DNA of 39,830 bases from Thermoanaerobacterales bacterium (GTDB lineage: Bacteria > Bacillota > Thermosediminibacteria > Thermosediminibacterales > Tepidanaerobacteraceae), in assembly GCA_012840135.1 (NCBI GenBank), contig DUMA01000028.1, positions 1 through 39,830 on the forward strand. Reading direction: 5' to 3'. Below the pieces are notes generated by a model. That model did no database searches. It was not told the origin of the DNA and saw nothing but the letters and a program-made list of their open reading frames with translations. Positions 35,549 through 39,830 of this stretch are shown here, piece after piece. Positions within the stretch are counted from its first letter, which is position 1; each line of letters begins with the position of its first letter. The position numbers and the translations under genes were made by a program.

Positions 35549-36010
35549 AGAGCTATAGATAAATTTAACTAAAATTACCGCAATTTTTGACATATTTTTT
35601 GCTAAAAGAAGGAAAAACTAGATTTTTGTAGAATAATAATAGCAAGTAACGCGACATCAAAATGACAATTTTATCGGTGAGGTTTATATAGAAAAGGGTA
35701 GAAAAAGGACTCGAAAGGAATGAACGAGAGATGCAAACGTTGAAATGCGCAACAAGAACATATGTTCGTTTCGGGGGGGGGGGTATAATATGTAAAATCT
35801 ACCAATATCTGGAAATTATTCATATTCCGTATTACAGTGGTTTTAGTTTTCGTGAGAACTTTTATTGTTTGCTTACCAATCTAAATTGCCTATTCAGGTT
35901 TTCCCTCCACTCTTTCCGGCTGCTTGGGAAGGGCCTCATGACCCTTCTTTCCTGCACGATTGTTTCCGTAGTGTACTATTACAATCATTCCCCATAAAAG
36001 AAGATCATTA
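35549..36010. other. AT-rich gene-poor stretch
   Basis: No gene I can support. It contains an AT-rich part (35560-35700), a LexA-like box, an 11-G run (35773-35783) followed directly by TATAAT, and a weak hairpin near 35930-35947 (aaggg/ccctt). The open frame at 35731-35997 is Cys/Tyr/Phe-rich, lacks a ribosome site and reads through the G run, so it is unlikely to be real. Confidence 0.6.
35755..35768. promoter_or_regulatory. LexA/SOS-box-like palindrome
   Basis: GAACATATGTTC at 35756-35767 is a perfect palindrome with flanking A and G, fitting the Gram-positive SOS box core GAAC-N4-GTTC. It lies 16 bases before a TATAAT (35784-35789). No obvious SOS gene follows. Confidence 0.5.
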
Positions 36011-36092: not shown

Positions 36093-36186
36093 TTTATTGT
36101 GCTAAAGGCAAACCATCCGAAAGGTTGGGACGCAAAGCCATGGGTCTGTAGCCCTTGAGGTATGACTGCCAGGTTGCCGCAATAAA
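36093..36186 (+). promoter_or_regulatory. Class I cyclic-di-GMP riboswitch (GEMM-I)
   Basis: The conserved core is present: GGCAAACC, a helix capped by the GNRA loop CCGAAAGG, GGGACGCAAAGCC, a second helix and the closing GGTTGCCG. An outer stem tttattg/caataaa (36093-36099 with 36180-36186) closes the aptamer. It lies about 150 bases before an HD-GYP gene and is followed by a switchable terminator. Binding of c-di-GMP should change terminator formation. Confidence 0.95.
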
Positions 36187-36191
36187 GGTTT

Positions 36192-36250
36192 CATTATTTG
36201 TTTAAATAATGTTCTCTATTACGGCAGCTGATTAGGCTGCCGTCTTTCTT
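36192..36250 (+). terminator. Expression platform terminator of the c-di-GMP riboswitch
   Basis: The stem acggcagc/gctgccgt (36221-36228 with 36236-36243) has loop tgattag, then CTTTCTT. A separate hairpin cattattt/aaataatg (about 36192-36211) lies between the aptamer and this terminator and may take part in switching. The direction of control (on or off) cannot be read with certainty. Confidence 0.8.
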
Positions 36251-36334
36251 ATATATATAAAAATACCCGCAAATACTCGTGTAAGATAGACTACGATAGA
36301 TGAAAAGAGAAAGTTAAAAAAGGGGGGCCGTGCT

Positions 36335-37066
36335 GTGAATCTAACGGGTATGGGCGATTTATTAATGACCATGAAAGAGTCCTGGTTCAGGTTATACCTC
36401 CACAGCGCCAGTGTTGCCAATCTCACTTTGAGAATATGTACTTTGCTGCGTCTCGATGAAGTGGAACAGGAAACAGTGATAGCTGGGGCATTCCTCCACG
36501 ATGTAGGAAAGATGTTTGTCAGGCGTGAAATTATCGAAAAGCCAGGACCGCTTACAGAGGAGGAATGGATTGAATTAAAAGAACACGCCAGGCGGGGCGC
36601 TTCAGTAGTAGCGGCAAGGGGAGGAGACAATTTCCTGGTGGAAATAATCAGATATCACCACGAATGGTGGAATGGGAAGGGATATGAGGGGCTCAGGGGG
36701 CAGATGATACCCTGGCCTGCCCGAGTCATCGCACTGGCCGATGCATTGGATGCCATGATTTCTCCAAGGCCTTATCGTCAGCCTTCTAAAGTGTATGAAG
36801 CACTCGAAGAAGTATACCAGGGTGCCGGTTCCCAGTTTGACCCGAAGTTAGTAGCAGCTTTGGCGGAAGAGCCCTTTTGGCAGACCGCCACCTATCGCGA
36901 TCCGGCCAGGCTGGAAAGACAAATAAGCGAGGAAAAACAATGGCTTATACAATTGGCGGATTCATATGTCACTTTATCTTATCCATTGGTATACGCCCAG
37001 AGCCAATGGCTGGACCGTTTGCTGGTAATATTGTGGGAATTGAAAGAAAGTGCAAAAAGGGGGTGA
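36335..37066 (+). CDS. Soluble HD-GYP-type phosphohydrolase
   Basis: A 243-residue single-domain protein. Visible metal-site motifs are LHSASVAN, AFLHDVGKM (HD), EHARRGASVV, IRYHHEWWNGKGYEGLRG (the HHE..GxGYP box with P replaced by E) and ADALDAMISPRPYR, then GSQFDPKLV. The HD-GYP family cleaves c-di-GMP. The changed GYP triplet makes activity likely but not certain. Start GTG 36335 follows AGGGGGG. It is the first gene behind the c-di-GMP riboswitch, giving a plausible feedback loop. The C-terminal 60 residues are Trp/Leu-rich and not recognised. Confidence 0.88.
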   Translation: MNLTGMGDLLMTMKESWFRLYLHSASVANLTLRICTLLRLDEVEQETVIAGAFLHDVGKMFVRREIIEKPGPLTEEEWIELKEHARRGASVVAARGGDNFLVEIIRYHHEWWNGKGYEGLRGQMIPWPARVIALADALDAMISPRPYRQPSKVYEALEEVYQGAGSQFDPKLVAALAEEPFWQTATYRDPARLERQISEEKQWLIQLADSYVTLSYPLVYAQSQWLDRLLVILWELKESAKRG

Positions 37067-37153
37067 AAGATAAAGGGAAGCAGTTGCAATTCGTTTGTGA
37101 GGAAGGACGCATTTAGCAATGGAGTAATTACAGACGGTCCGGAGGTGTTCAGT

Positions 37154-37477
37154 GTGTTGTCTTTATCCGTTAGTTTAGAAAATCAAGCTACCGTCCTGAA
37201 GGTAGCCGGGGAACTGGACCTTTCTACCGTACCTGAATTTAAAGCTTTTTACGAAAAATACAAACCTATTAACGGGCTGATTGTTTTCGACATGACTGGT
37301 TTAGAATTCGTGGATTCTACCGGTGTGGGAAGTCTCCTGGCTATCTGGAAAGATCTGAACCAGAGCCAACAGCCGTTTTCCGTCTGCAACCTTAGCGAGG
37401 ATGTTTACGAAGTATTGGATGTGATGGGCGTACCGGATTTCCTGGGCGAGGAACACTTCAAACGCTCACCGTTATAG
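37154..37477 (+). CDS. STAS-domain anti-anti-sigma factor
   Basis: A 107-residue SpoIIAA-like protein. It has VAGELDLSTVPEFKAFY and the phosphorylation motif FVDSTGVGSLLAI (Ser in DSTG), as in antagonists of anti-sigma kinases. No partner kinase or sigma gene is in the window. The start is GTG 37154 with ribosome site GGAGGTG (37141-37147); an upstream in-frame GTG at 37097 lacks a site. It is the second gene of the riboswitch-led operon, so it may couple c-di-GMP level to a partner-switch pathway (inference). Confidence 0.92.
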   Translation: MLSLSVSLENQATVLKVAGELDLSTVPEFKAFYEKYKPINGLIVFDMTGLEFVDSTGVGSLLAIWKDLNQSQQPFSVCNLSEDVYEVLDVMGVPDFLGEEHFKRSPL

Positions 37478-37521
37478 ATCATTCTGGGCCTCGCTAACTA
37501 TTACAATTAAGGAGAGGACTC

Positions 37522-38067
37522 ATGATTTACGAGTTTCTAATCCCGGTGGTCGCCATAGCCTTTCTTAAAAAAGGGTCACTGCAGCGCCTGTCGGAAACCG
37601 AAATAAGGAAGCCGTGGATGATCATATCCGGGTTATTGCTACAGTGGATAGTGATGTTTCTTTACCATCGCGTTTCGTTTATAAAACAGAGTTTTGCCTT
37701 TTGGGTAGTTGTTTCCTACTTAATGCTAATCTATGGTTGCTGGTGCAATCGCCGCATCCCGGGCATTAAAATGTTTATTTTCGGCACATTACTCAACTTC
37801 TCTGTGATAATCGCCAATGGCGGCAGGATGCCCGTATCCCTGGATGCGCTGGAGTGGGCGGGCTTGTCCTCATACATACCTGCGGTAGTGGAAGGGGTGA
37901 CAAAACACCAACCGCTGACGGAATTCACCCTTCTACCGTATTTAGCTGACGTCATTCCCTTGCGTCCTCCTTTTGTTTTCAGCAGCATGGTTGTAAGCCC
38001 CGGCGACATTGCGGTGACGCTGGGCGTCTCATGGTTTGTTTACAAGGGGATGGTTAAAACAGTATAG
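37522..38067 (+). CDS. DUF5317 family membrane protein
   Basis: A 181-residue protein with four or five membrane helices (residues about 3-15, 31-48, 57-75, 83-97, 155-175). The central stretch NGGRMPVSLDALEW, then TKHQPLTEFTLLPYLADVIP and a C-terminal SPGDIAVTLGVSWFV match DUF5317 as I know it. Function unknown. It lies 44 bases after the STAS gene with ribosome site AAGGAGAGG and belongs to the same operon. Confidence 0.85.
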   Translation: MIYEFLIPVVAIAFLKKGSLQRLSETEIRKPWMIISGLLLQWIVMFLYHRVSFIKQSFAFWVVVSYLMLIYGCWCNRRIPGIKMFIFGTLLNFSVIIANGGRMPVSLDALEWAGLSSYIPAVVEGVTKHQPLTEFTLLPYLADVIPLRPPFVFSSMVVSPGDIAVTLGVSWFVYKGMVKTV

Positions 38068-38133
38068 CCATTAGATTTCAAACTTTGGGGCGTAGATCAT
38101 TAGGGTGAAACAATTTATCCGGGGGGAGGTGAT

Positions 38134-38211
38134 ATGATGAAGAAGGTCTTATTCTGGTTTACTGTAGCTTCCATGGTACTGGCTGCTGTGGCTAGATTTC
38201 CATGGCACTAA
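38134..38211 (+). CDS. 25-residue membrane peptide
   Basis: A small gene with an excellent ribosome site (GGGGGGAGGTGAT) before two consecutive ATG codons (38134 and 38137). The peptide reads MMKKVLFWFTVASMVLAAV, then ARFPWH: basic start, one hydrophobic helix and an aromatic tail. It lies between the DUF5317 and membrane HD-GYP genes in the same direction. It could be a small membrane regulator or a precursor of a secreted peptide signal. No family is recognised. Confidence 0.6.
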   Translation: MMKKVLFWFTVASMVLAAVARFPWH

Positions 38212-38297
38212 ACGATGTTCCTGTTACATGATTGGTACATGAAAAGTGATTTATTCTACGCCCCTTTTTTCCTTAATACACTTTTCTGAAGAAAGGA

Positions 38298-38367
38298 GAG
38301 AACAGCCATGACAGGATCTTTGAAAAACTTTATATACACGGTCATAGCTACCGGCATGGCTGTTCTC
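38298..38367 (+). repeat. 13-bp inverted repeat over the start codon of the membrane HD-GYP gene
   Basis: gagaacagccatg (38298-38310) is exactly complementary to 38355-38367, with a 44-base loop. The left arm includes the ATG at 38308 and abuts the ribosome site AAGGAG. Pairing in the mRNA would hide the start codon. Confidence 0.75.
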
Positions 38368-39714
38368 TTGCTGGTGTTATCCGGCCTAAAAATAAAATTT
38401 TTACCTTTTGTTTTGGCAATAGGCCTGATTGCTGGATTGCTTGAAAAATTTTATGTTGAATTACCAAACGGATCTATAGTTTCAGGCTCTACTACCTTCA
38501 CTTTCGTTGTAATGGCTGTCTACGGCATTCCAGAAGCGGTAGTAATTGAGACTATCATTTCTTTAGTCAGTATTCCATTGGTTAAACGCGAAACAATTAA
38601 ATTTTTATTTAATACAAGCCAGTATATTATTTGTATCGTTGCTGCAGGATACGGGTACCTGTGGTCAGGGGGAGTACCGGGGACTTTTACGTGGTATGAT
38701 GTTCCCCGTTTGCTGTTTGCCATTGCTCTCTACTATCTTGTGAACATCACCTTGATGTCCGTCATTATCTCTGAACTGAGTAAAAGAAAATATTTGGCAA
38801 CCTGGATTGAAATGGTCCAAGACGGCCTTTTAATATATTTAGTCGTTTCTCTCTTAAGCGTGCGTCTGGTTCTTTCCTATGAGCTATATGATCAACTGCA
38901 GTTCTGGATTGAAACACTATTTGTTTTTGTAGTTTTCTTAGCCCTGCGCTATGCTTTTGCCTTATTCATCAACTTGCGGAAAACCTACTTAAGGACGATG
39001 GAATCACTCACTCAATTAACTGAAAACAAACTGTCTATCAGTGGAGGACATGCCACCAGGGTTGGCAGGATAGCCCGCAAGATTGCAGAAAAGATGAAAC
39101 TACCCCAGGATGAAATTGATTCAATTCATTATGCGGCTCTATTGCACGACTTGGGCAAGACCTATCTGGAGGAAAAAATCTTTCAAAAGCGAGGGCCGCT
39201 TACTCTGGAAGAAGAAAGGGAATATCGCAAACACGCGGAAATTGGCGCTGATATGGTAAAGGAGATAGCCGGGTTAGCCAGGTCTTCAGAGTATATTCGC
39301 TACCACCATGAATGCTGGGACGGCACAGGGTTCCCTGCTGGTATATCGGGAGAGCATATACCGCTGGGAGCTCGGATTATTGCTGCTGCTGATCAGTACG
39401 ATCACATTTTTTACAAGAAGAAGTCCAAAACTGATTTCGCAGCACTGGCGGGAACCAAACTGGACCCCCAGGTGGTGGAAATTGTATTAGGGATTGCCGA
39501 TTTGCAGGAGGAGCCCGGGAAAATGGCCATGCCGGCCACCATTGAAGAGAAACTGATCGAAAACCTTGTAATAAGTGAAGCGCGGAAAAGGGTTTACCAG
39601 TCACAACTGTTGGATAAATTTGGTGCGTCTCTAATCGTACGTTATGATGGTGAGTTTAGAAATGAGACAGGAGATTTCATCGATATTCCATGCCGGGAGC
39701 AAGTGATAGTGTAA
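38308..39714 (+). CDS. Membrane-anchored HD-GYP domain protein
   Basis: A 468-residue protein. The N-terminal 230 residues form about seven membrane helices (for example VIATGMAVLLLVLSG, FLPFVLAIGLIAGLL, LLFAIALYYLVNITLM, LFVFVVFLALRYAFALF), a likely sensor. The HD-GYP domain follows (about 245-400): HATRVGRIA, ALLHDLGKTYL, FQKRGPLTLEE, KHAEIGADMV, IRYHHECWDGTGFPAG (GYP replaced by GFP) and AADQYD. The R.Y part after the last Asp is missing. The C-terminal 70 residues are not recognised. Predicted c-di-GMP phosphodiesterase at the membrane. Last complete gene of the riboswitch-led operon. Confidence 0.88.
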   Translation: MTGSLKNFIYTVIATGMAVLLLVLSGLKIKFLPFVLAIGLIAGLLEKFYVELPNGSIVSGSTTFTFVVMAVYGIPEAVVIETIISLVSIPLVKRETIKFLFNTSQYIICIVAAGYGYLWSGGVPGTFTWYDVPRLLFAIALYYLVNITLMSVIISELSKRKYLATWIEMVQDGLLIYLVVSLLSVRLVLSYELYDQLQFWIETLFVFVVFLALRYAFALFINLRKTYLRTMESLTQLTENKLSISGGHATRVGRIARKIAEKMKLPQDEIDSIHYAALLHDLGKTYLEEKIFQKRGPLTLEEEREYRKHAEIGADMVKEIAGLARSSEYIRYHHECWDGTGFPAGISGEHIPLGARIIAAADQYDHIFYKKKSKTDFAALAGTKLDPQVVEIVLGIADLQEEPGKMAMPATIEEKLIENLVISEARKRVYQSQLLDKFGASLIVRYDGEFRNETGDFIDIPCREQVIV

Positions 39715-39764
39715 AATATTATTAGGTCAAAAAGCAGGAAAACGGTGGACGTACGTAGAAAAAA

Positions 39765-39819
39765 GACCTCACCATCCTCCACAAGGATGAGTTAAAAAAC
39801 TCAACAGGAAGGTGAGGTC
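39765..39819 (+). promoter_or_regulatory. Three-way-junction RNA fold enclosing a ribosome binding site
   Basis: Outer stem gacctcacc/ggtgaggtc (39765-39773 with 39811-39819) encloses two hairpins: atcct/aggat (39774-39778 with 39784-39788) and gagtt/aactc (39789-39793 with 39798-39802). The 3' arm of the outer stem is the ribosome site AGGTGAGG of the gene that starts at 39822, so folding should block translation. Confidence 0.7.
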
Positions 39820-39821
39820 AT

Positions 39822-39830
39822 ATGAAAATA
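39822..39830 (+). CDS. Start of a gene that leaves the window
   Basis: Only ATGAAAATA (Met-Lys-Ile) is visible, behind a good ribosome site. The product cannot be named. The palindromic leader, placed after an operon end, would suit either a regulated gene or the left end of an insertion sequence. Confidence 0.5.

Follow-up and report, generated by a model that had tools for sequence, protein, structure and literature searches.

The window analysed here, a 39,830-nucleotide (nt) stretch of contig DUMA01000028.1 from a Thermoanaerobacterales bacterium (assembly GCA_012840135.1), carries near its 3' end a riboswitch of the cyclic di-GMP (c-di-GMP) class I clan, followed by an operon whose first open reading frame (ORF1) encodes an HD-GYP domain fused to a Spo0E-like domain. 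The layout of the leader and the domains of ORF1 suggest an OFF riboswitch latch that links the c-di-GMP state of the cell to the state of Spo0A, a mechanism to which we give an even chance. In a relative with an intact operon the genes continue into what appears to be a partner-switching cassette, which in the window is cut by an insertion sequence (IS) element. Features with a strand lie on the plus strand.

The c-di-GMP-I aptamer and its leader

A covariance-model scan placed the aptamer at 36098–36182, matching the Rfam model RF03167 (c-di-GMP-I-GGC) with 71.5 bits (cut-off 59, E = 3.7e-15); only the best-scoring clan model was kept and the lower-scoring clan member dropped. A first-pass annotation of the DNA had put a GEMM-I-type aptamer ahead of this gene set, which is confirmed, and had named RF01051 as its model, which holds for the clan and not for the family, as RF03167 scores best. 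The window RNA shares its sequence and fold with the c-di-GMP-I (GEMM-I) riboswitches of both families. The 5' strand of P1 (UUUAUUGUG, 36093–36101) pairs with 36178–36186. Membership in the GGC variant was rejected despite the best score. Where the RF03167 consensus reads GACGCGAA, the window reads GACGCAAA, with A in place of the model's G, and we equate this base with position 47 in the numbering of the Vc2 structure. We read the name 'GGC' as G20/G47/C92, a meaning for which we found no source, and the presumed variant-defining base is thus A in the window. On the same numbering, the presumed ligand-contact bases G20, A47 and C92 are present in the window and invariant across seven aligned leaders, and an RNA with this ordinary set should bind c-di-GMP. 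Our confidence in the identity of the aptamer is much higher than in the mechanism as a whole.

The window's own genome holds ten matches to the aptamer family, several of them better assigned to RF01051. The other c-di-GMP-I aptamers stand ahead of CheW/chemotaxis genes, genes for large surface proteins, a flagellar operon and a TasA/SipW-like cluster that also includes a c-di-GMP-II-GAG aptamer (gene names read from translations, without a family search). Genes of these kinds are consistent with c-di-GMP being the ligand here. One cluster on contig C11 (L034, 10860–12257) combines two c-di-GMP-I-clan aptamers 103 nt apart with a c-di-GMP-II-GAG aptamer; its genes are of surface-protein, signal-peptidase-like and TasA-like kinds.

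An intrinsic terminator stem follows the aptamer at 36221–36243, where a search independent of the first-pass annotation recovered the terminator that it had listed. Two mutually exclusive folds were found in the alignment of the seven leaders. In one of them the aptamer with P1 and the terminator form, with 97.1% of alignment cells paired (27–54% when slid). In the other an antiterminator joins GGUUGCCG...AAU on the 3' side of the aptamer to AUU.CGGCAGCU in the 5' arm of the terminator, with 84 of 84 cells paired (17–58% when slid). The 5' strand of the antiterminator (GGUUGCCG, 36172–36179) consists of bases that also serve aptamer P3/P1, and its 3' strand (CGGCAGCU, 36222–36229) lies inside the terminator. 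With the terminator still incomplete and no ligand bound, the antiterminator fold is favoured over the enforced aptamer fold by ~12–20 kcal/mol; since the aptamer folds first during transcription, and the models include neither ligand nor kinetics and cannot decide the direction of the switch, these figures show that both states are available and no more. The leader has the classic OFF layout, in that the aptamer supplies from its own 3' strand the pairing partner of the terminator 5' arm. The terminator itself ends ~90 nt 5' of the start codon, at a distance from the ribosome site. The leader thus reads as a transcription-terminating OFF switch, and it is from this layout that we infer its direction in the cell.

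An HD-GYP–Spo0E fusion encoded by the first gene

Pfam, fold and sequence matches identify ORF1 (36335–37066, 243 amino acids (aa)) as an HD-GYP–Spo0E fusion. Its HD_5 domain (residues 19–172, 91.1 bits) has the usual HD-GYP metal-ligand positions (H23, H55, D56, H84, H108, H109 and D136) and matches solved HD-GYP enzymes by sequence and by fold, the best PDB fold match being a c-di-GMP-bound HD-GYP domain. Domain, metal-ligand positions and fold are common to ORF1 and the phosphodiesterases PA4781 (4r8z), PmGH (4mcw) and DvhD (9rbz), from which ORF1 differs in having GYE for GYP and a fused Spo0E-like domain. A second HD_5 match downstream (38308–39714, 105.2 bits) bears out the first-pass claim of two putative c-di-GMP hydrolases. 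What had been overlooked is the Spo0E-like domain of ORF1 (residues 193–231, ~36911–37027; 29.3 bits, Pfam cut-off 23). In the AlphaFold model (mean predicted local distance difference test score, pLDDT, 91.5) helices 190–209 and 215–242 form a C-terminal two-helix hairpin, and the last 69 residues match PDB 2c0s (SQWLDRLL versus SQELDRLL), an entry titled 'conserved domain protein' that we take to be a Spo0E-like protein. Spo0E-like proteins are a family of Spo0A~P phosphatases. Their helical hairpin and SQxLD-type motif are shared by ORF1, the motif with W in place of E; they are normally free-standing, in frames of ~50–110 aa, whereas the domain in ORF1 is joined to one for c-di-GMP turnover.

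Ten orthologues of ORF1 were found, the window included, and the riboswitch is upstream of nine: besides the window, those of Desulfoscipio geothermicus, Desulfallas Bu1-1, the metagenome-assembled genome (MAG) FK_Sedi_B_Bin.80, a complete genome of the window's genus (G001), G007, G135, G099 and G134, the last with a weaker aptamer (41.5 bits). The Spo0E domain exceeded the cut-off in each orthologue scanned (24–32 bits), namely those of G001, G060, D. geothermicus, Desulfallas Bu1-1, the MAG, G134, G135 and the G007 fragment. In G110 the Spo0E end of such a gene survives as a broken trace (L191:7781-7912) between a riboswitch and a kinase, with the HD-GYP part gone.

Spo0E-like matches were also sought in long reading frames, and further fusions were retrieved (Spo0E 37–39 bits). 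GGDEF–Spo0E proteins of 302–303 aa with the GGDEF motif intact (129–130 bits) are encoded by G006 (L202:1356-2264) and G003 (L203:1115-2026), both belonging to the same genome family as the window, and a Spo0E–HD protein of 252 aa with the reversed domain order (HD_5 105.7 bits) by G328 (L201:1330-2088), in which core HD residues are lost (HN for HD, HR for HH). The G003 and G006 fusions are closely related, so that, with ORF1, the examples represent three separate architectures and not a count of independent origins. The recurrent fusion of Spo0E with domains of c-di-GMP turnover suggests that the two are functionally linked. A Spo0A gene was found in each of the seven genomes tested, and the window's own genome has eight GGDEF matches. 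In G001 the sequence for the C-terminal domain of Spo0A (G001:C1:1728801-1729113) is divided between two frames, possibly by a frameshift or a sequencing error. Spo0E matches in frames of 339 aa (G033) and 285 aa (G117) were not accepted as clear fusions, since these frames have the appearance of long stretches left open in GC-rich DNA. In G328 a c-di-GMP-I-clan riboswitch (L207:2973-3052) lies ~1.1 kb off on the other strand and does not lead the Spo0E–HD gene.

A partner-switching cassette in relatives and its interruption in the window

The genes behind ORF1 are all present as first listed. They encode a STAS protein of the anti-sigma-factor-antagonist type (37097–37477, 49.5 bits, with a DSTG serine motif; the start could alternatively be 37154), a DUF5317 membrane protein (37522–38067, 153.6 bits), a 25-aa hydrophobic peptide (MMKKVLFWFTVASMVLAAVARFPWH, 38134–38211) that has a strong ribosome-binding site and is conserved in six loci, and ORF5 (38308–39714), the second HD-GYP protein (motif HHECWDGTGFP versus HHExxDGxGYP). 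No plus-strand terminators were seen between the coding sequences of the operon. A pheromone identity for the peptide was rejected (15.8 bits, cut-off 29), and no MASE9 domain is claimed in the membrane part of ORF5, where the match was below threshold (22.4, cut-off 24.3).

Position 39714 is ruled out as the natural end of the operon by an IS break in ORF5. DNA of G001 matches the window's contig (C28) up to 39707 and resumes on contig C51 from base 127, the sequence past 39707 also terminates three further contigs of the same genome, at 99–100% identity, and the short direct repeat GGAGCAAGT stands on both sides of the break at ~39707. Taken together, the split match, the contig-end repeats and the direct repeat show that an IS element, one end of which occupies 39708–39830, interrupts the gene; the product of 468 aa keeps HD-GYP and loses the kinase. 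The intact gene of G001 encodes 707 aa in which a membrane part is followed by HD-GYP and then by an RsbW-like HATPase_c_2 domain (50.8 bits), and 3' of it lie genes for a second STAS protein, a SpoIIE-type phosphatase (183 bits) and FapA. With STAS antagonist, HATPase kinase and PP2C phosphatase in one operon, the G001 operon is, by its domain content, a partner-switching cassette of the same make-up as SpoIIAA/SpoIIAB/SpoIIE and RsbV/RsbW/RsbU. It differs from SpoIIAA/RsbV-type switches in that the kinase is fused to a membrane HD-GYP protein, a c-di-GMP riboswitch stands in front, FapA comes last and neither a sigma factor nor another kinase-sequestered partner was seen within the operon. 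The kinase, the phosphatase and FapA had been missed in the first-pass annotation.

The gene order of the window is common to G001 and G135. D. geothermicus, the MAG and Desulfallas Bu1-1 have the riboswitch, HD-Spo0E, an RsbW-type kinase of 418–432 aa, STAS, a SpoIIE-type phosphatase, STAS and FapA; Pfam gave no match for a PilZ-like N-terminus suspected by eye in the 418-aa kinase. In Desulfallas Bu1-1 a second c-di-GMP-I riboswitch follows, with STAS, DUF5317, HD-GYP–RsbW, STAS and phosphatase genes 86–94% identical to those of G001. The order in the window looks like this second set placed inside the first, and such high identity between distant genomes suggests transfer. HD-GYP/RsbW-like/STAS/FapA sets with a SpoIIE-type phosphatase nearby also occur behind c-di-GMP-I-clan riboswitches in G300 and G406.

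DUF5317 was present in 118 of the 398 genomes sampled, and an HD-GYP match adjoins it in 24 of the 30 loci fetched, 5 of these 24 being operons of the kind seen here. Paralogous DUF5317/HD-GYP pairs exist in the window's own genus. The pairing is therefore ordinary and was discarded as a novel part. There is support for the first-pass proposal that the genes belong to a larger circuit so far undescribed as a whole, and this circuit can be identified as partner switching plus Spo0E. Searches of mobile elements gave one HD-GYP match in viral contigs, generic HD-GYP only in plasmids and one weak unnamed family in PHROGs. At the opposite end of the window, a T-box leader (254–571, 102.9 bits) is preceded by a tRNA (42–113).

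A possible phase-variable promoter upstream of the riboswitch

Upstream of the aptamer, positions 35756–35789 consist of GAACATATGTTC, GTTTC, eleven G and TATAAT. The palindrome GAACATATGTTC (35756–35767) matches the Gram-positive SOS-box core. The poly-G tract (35773–35783) is the longest G or C run in the 167 kb of own-genome DNA examined, and TATAAT (35784–35789), a candidate -10 box, lies directly 3' of it. Relatives have 7 to 22 G, lengths taken from assemblies, which are poor at such tracts, and compared between genomes rather than within a strain. G001, D. geothermicus, the MAG, Desulfallas, G135 and G060 likewise have leaders with the palindrome (one or two changes in some) and poly-G ahead of a TATAAT-like hexamer; what lies beyond the tract in G134 is unclear. 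Eight of the 398 genomes have the element pattern and none has the reversed pattern. All nine sites are upstream of an HD-GYP gene, in seven cases that of an HD-Spo0E operon and in two another one (G356 C46 and G069). Poly-G tracts near a -10 box are an established route to phase variation, and the combination suggests a possible phase-variable promoter ahead of HD-GYP genes. It is also possible that the element has a translated function, as a short ORF (35731–35997, 88 aa as assembled) with the conserved start 'MxxLxxAxRTYVx' covers it and runs through the tract. A copy of the palindrome with one mismatch to CGAACATATGTTCG precedes uvrB (gene read from its translation) in the window's own genome. 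Heritable on/off control of phase-variable c-di-GMP phosphodiesterases is exerted by DNA inversion in C. difficile (PMC9286219); the window would likewise have heritable control ahead of phosphodiesterase genes, but by poly-G slipping, if real.

Proposed mechanism and alternative explanations

At low c-di-GMP, the 3' side of the aptamer would pair with the 5' arm of the terminator and the operon would be read. The HD-GYP domain of ORF1 would remove c-di-GMP, its Spo0E-like domain would take the phosphate off Spo0A~P and hold back Spo0A-driven development, and the remaining genes would supply FapA and a partner switch of STAS antagonists, a membrane HD-GYP-fused RsbW-like kinase and a SpoIIE-type phosphatase. 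At high c-di-GMP, the aptamer with P1 and then the terminator would form, and less degrader and Spo0E domain would be made; c-di-GMP would then stay high and Spo0A~P could rise. The first-pass annotation had c-di-GMP controlling its own breakdown. Control over putative hydrolases stands, but with an OFF leader high c-di-GMP should shut off its own degraders, and the feedback reads as a self-reinforcing latch rather than as homeostasis.

Several observations weigh against this mechanism. The GYP motif of ORF1 is HHEWWNGKGYE instead of HHExxDGxGYP, with GYE for GYP and N for D, and the SQELD motif has become SQWLD, with S, Q, L and D kept and W for E. The match to 2c0s is weak when taken alone (E = 0.013). 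Five antiterminator pairs vary, each on one side only, and none is compensatory. A scan for consensus promoters found none just upstream of the aptamer, and no riboswitch is recognisable ahead of the fusion in G060. Finally, raised c-di-GMP lowers early sporulation in C. difficile, reportedly through an unidentified pathway (PMC8653836), which is opposite in sign to the simplest prediction here; this may reflect a difference between species or some other control over the Spo0E domain.

Some of these points would suit other readings. The HD-GYP domain of ORF1 could have ceased to hydrolyse c-di-GMP and bind it as a receptor that toggles Spo0E, in which case c-di-GMP would act on Spo0A through both RNA and protein. 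The GYE-for-GYP and D-to-N (N113) replacements fit such a receptor, as do the c-di-GMP-bound closest fold and the G328 protein, which keeps the fusion despite its lost core HD residues. We regard it as unlikely, since the aligned HD-Spo0E orthologues keep all the usual metal-ligand positions, which argues for retained catalysis, and most have D in HHExxDG, N being found in the window and G001. It is similarly improbable that the Spo0E-like tail is a helical-hairpin relic or dimerisation element that does not act on Spo0A, in which case the operon would be a c-di-GMP riboswitch regulon of the ordinary kind, with partner switching. The modest Spo0E scores (24–32 bits, cut-off 23) and the altered SQELD motif could be so explained, but the domain passes the cut-off in every orthologue scanned and is more strongly matched in the other c-di-GMP-domain fusions.

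On the one hand, negative feedback is the conventional reading of such an arrangement, and a leader acting as an ON switch or on translation, by which high c-di-GMP would induce its own degraders, is compatible with free-energy models that cannot fix direction. On the other hand, the pairing of the terminator 5' arm with the aptamer 3' strand in seven of seven leaders and the distance of the terminator from the ribosome site make this homeostatic alternative very unlikely. The neighbours might also have been gathered by chance or transfer without forming one circuit: the two halves are separate in Desulfallas Bu1-1, each with its own riboswitch, the parts are scattered in G134, and, as the IS insertion shows, the strain can do without the kinase fusion. 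The order shared with G001 and G135, together with the similar riboswitch-led sets of G300 and G406, renders such an accidental grouping quite unlikely.

Relation to known systems and significance

That riboswitches control c-di-GMP-metabolism genes is known from earlier work (reviewed in PMC7266159) and is in itself not new, nor is the DUF5317/HD-GYP pairing. The window's riboswitch is set apart from known c-di-GMP-I riboswitches by its control of an HD-GYP–Spo0E fusion and a partner-switch cassette. In Streptomyces, the c-di-GMP phosphodiesterase RmdB acts on the c-di-GMP pool and on the RsiG-sigma-WhiG anti-sigma switch in sporulation, but RmdB is a GGDEF-EAL protein in a system with protein-level c-di-GMP sensing and neither riboswitch nor Spo0E (PMC13232838). 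In the open-access literature, which leaves out most subscription papers and is weak evidence of novelty, we found no paper on Spo0E with GGDEF, on Spo0E with HD-GYP and c-di-GMP, or on DUF5317. In these papers the Spo0E link and the cassette appear undescribed; we see the novelty in the fusion to Spo0E, in the OFF logic and in the IS-interrupted partner-switch cassette.

These results bear on the wider question of how c-di-GMP influences the initiation of sporulation in endospore formers. A broader proposal, which we put forward tentatively and consider doubtful as a whole, is that HD-GYP/GGDEF–Spo0E proteins wire c-di-GMP turnover directly to Spo0A phosphorylation in some Bacillota, and that in the window's lineage this would be controlled in three layers, namely a poly-G phase-variable promoter beside an SOS-box-like palindrome, an OFF-riboswitch latch, and a partner switch with its kinase in a membrane HD-GYP protein. 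A protein with c-di-GMP turnover and Spo0A-phosphatase-type domains under a c-di-GMP riboswitch would provide a direct link outside pathogens, and ORF1 is a candidate for such a direct wire between c-di-GMP and the decision to form spores.

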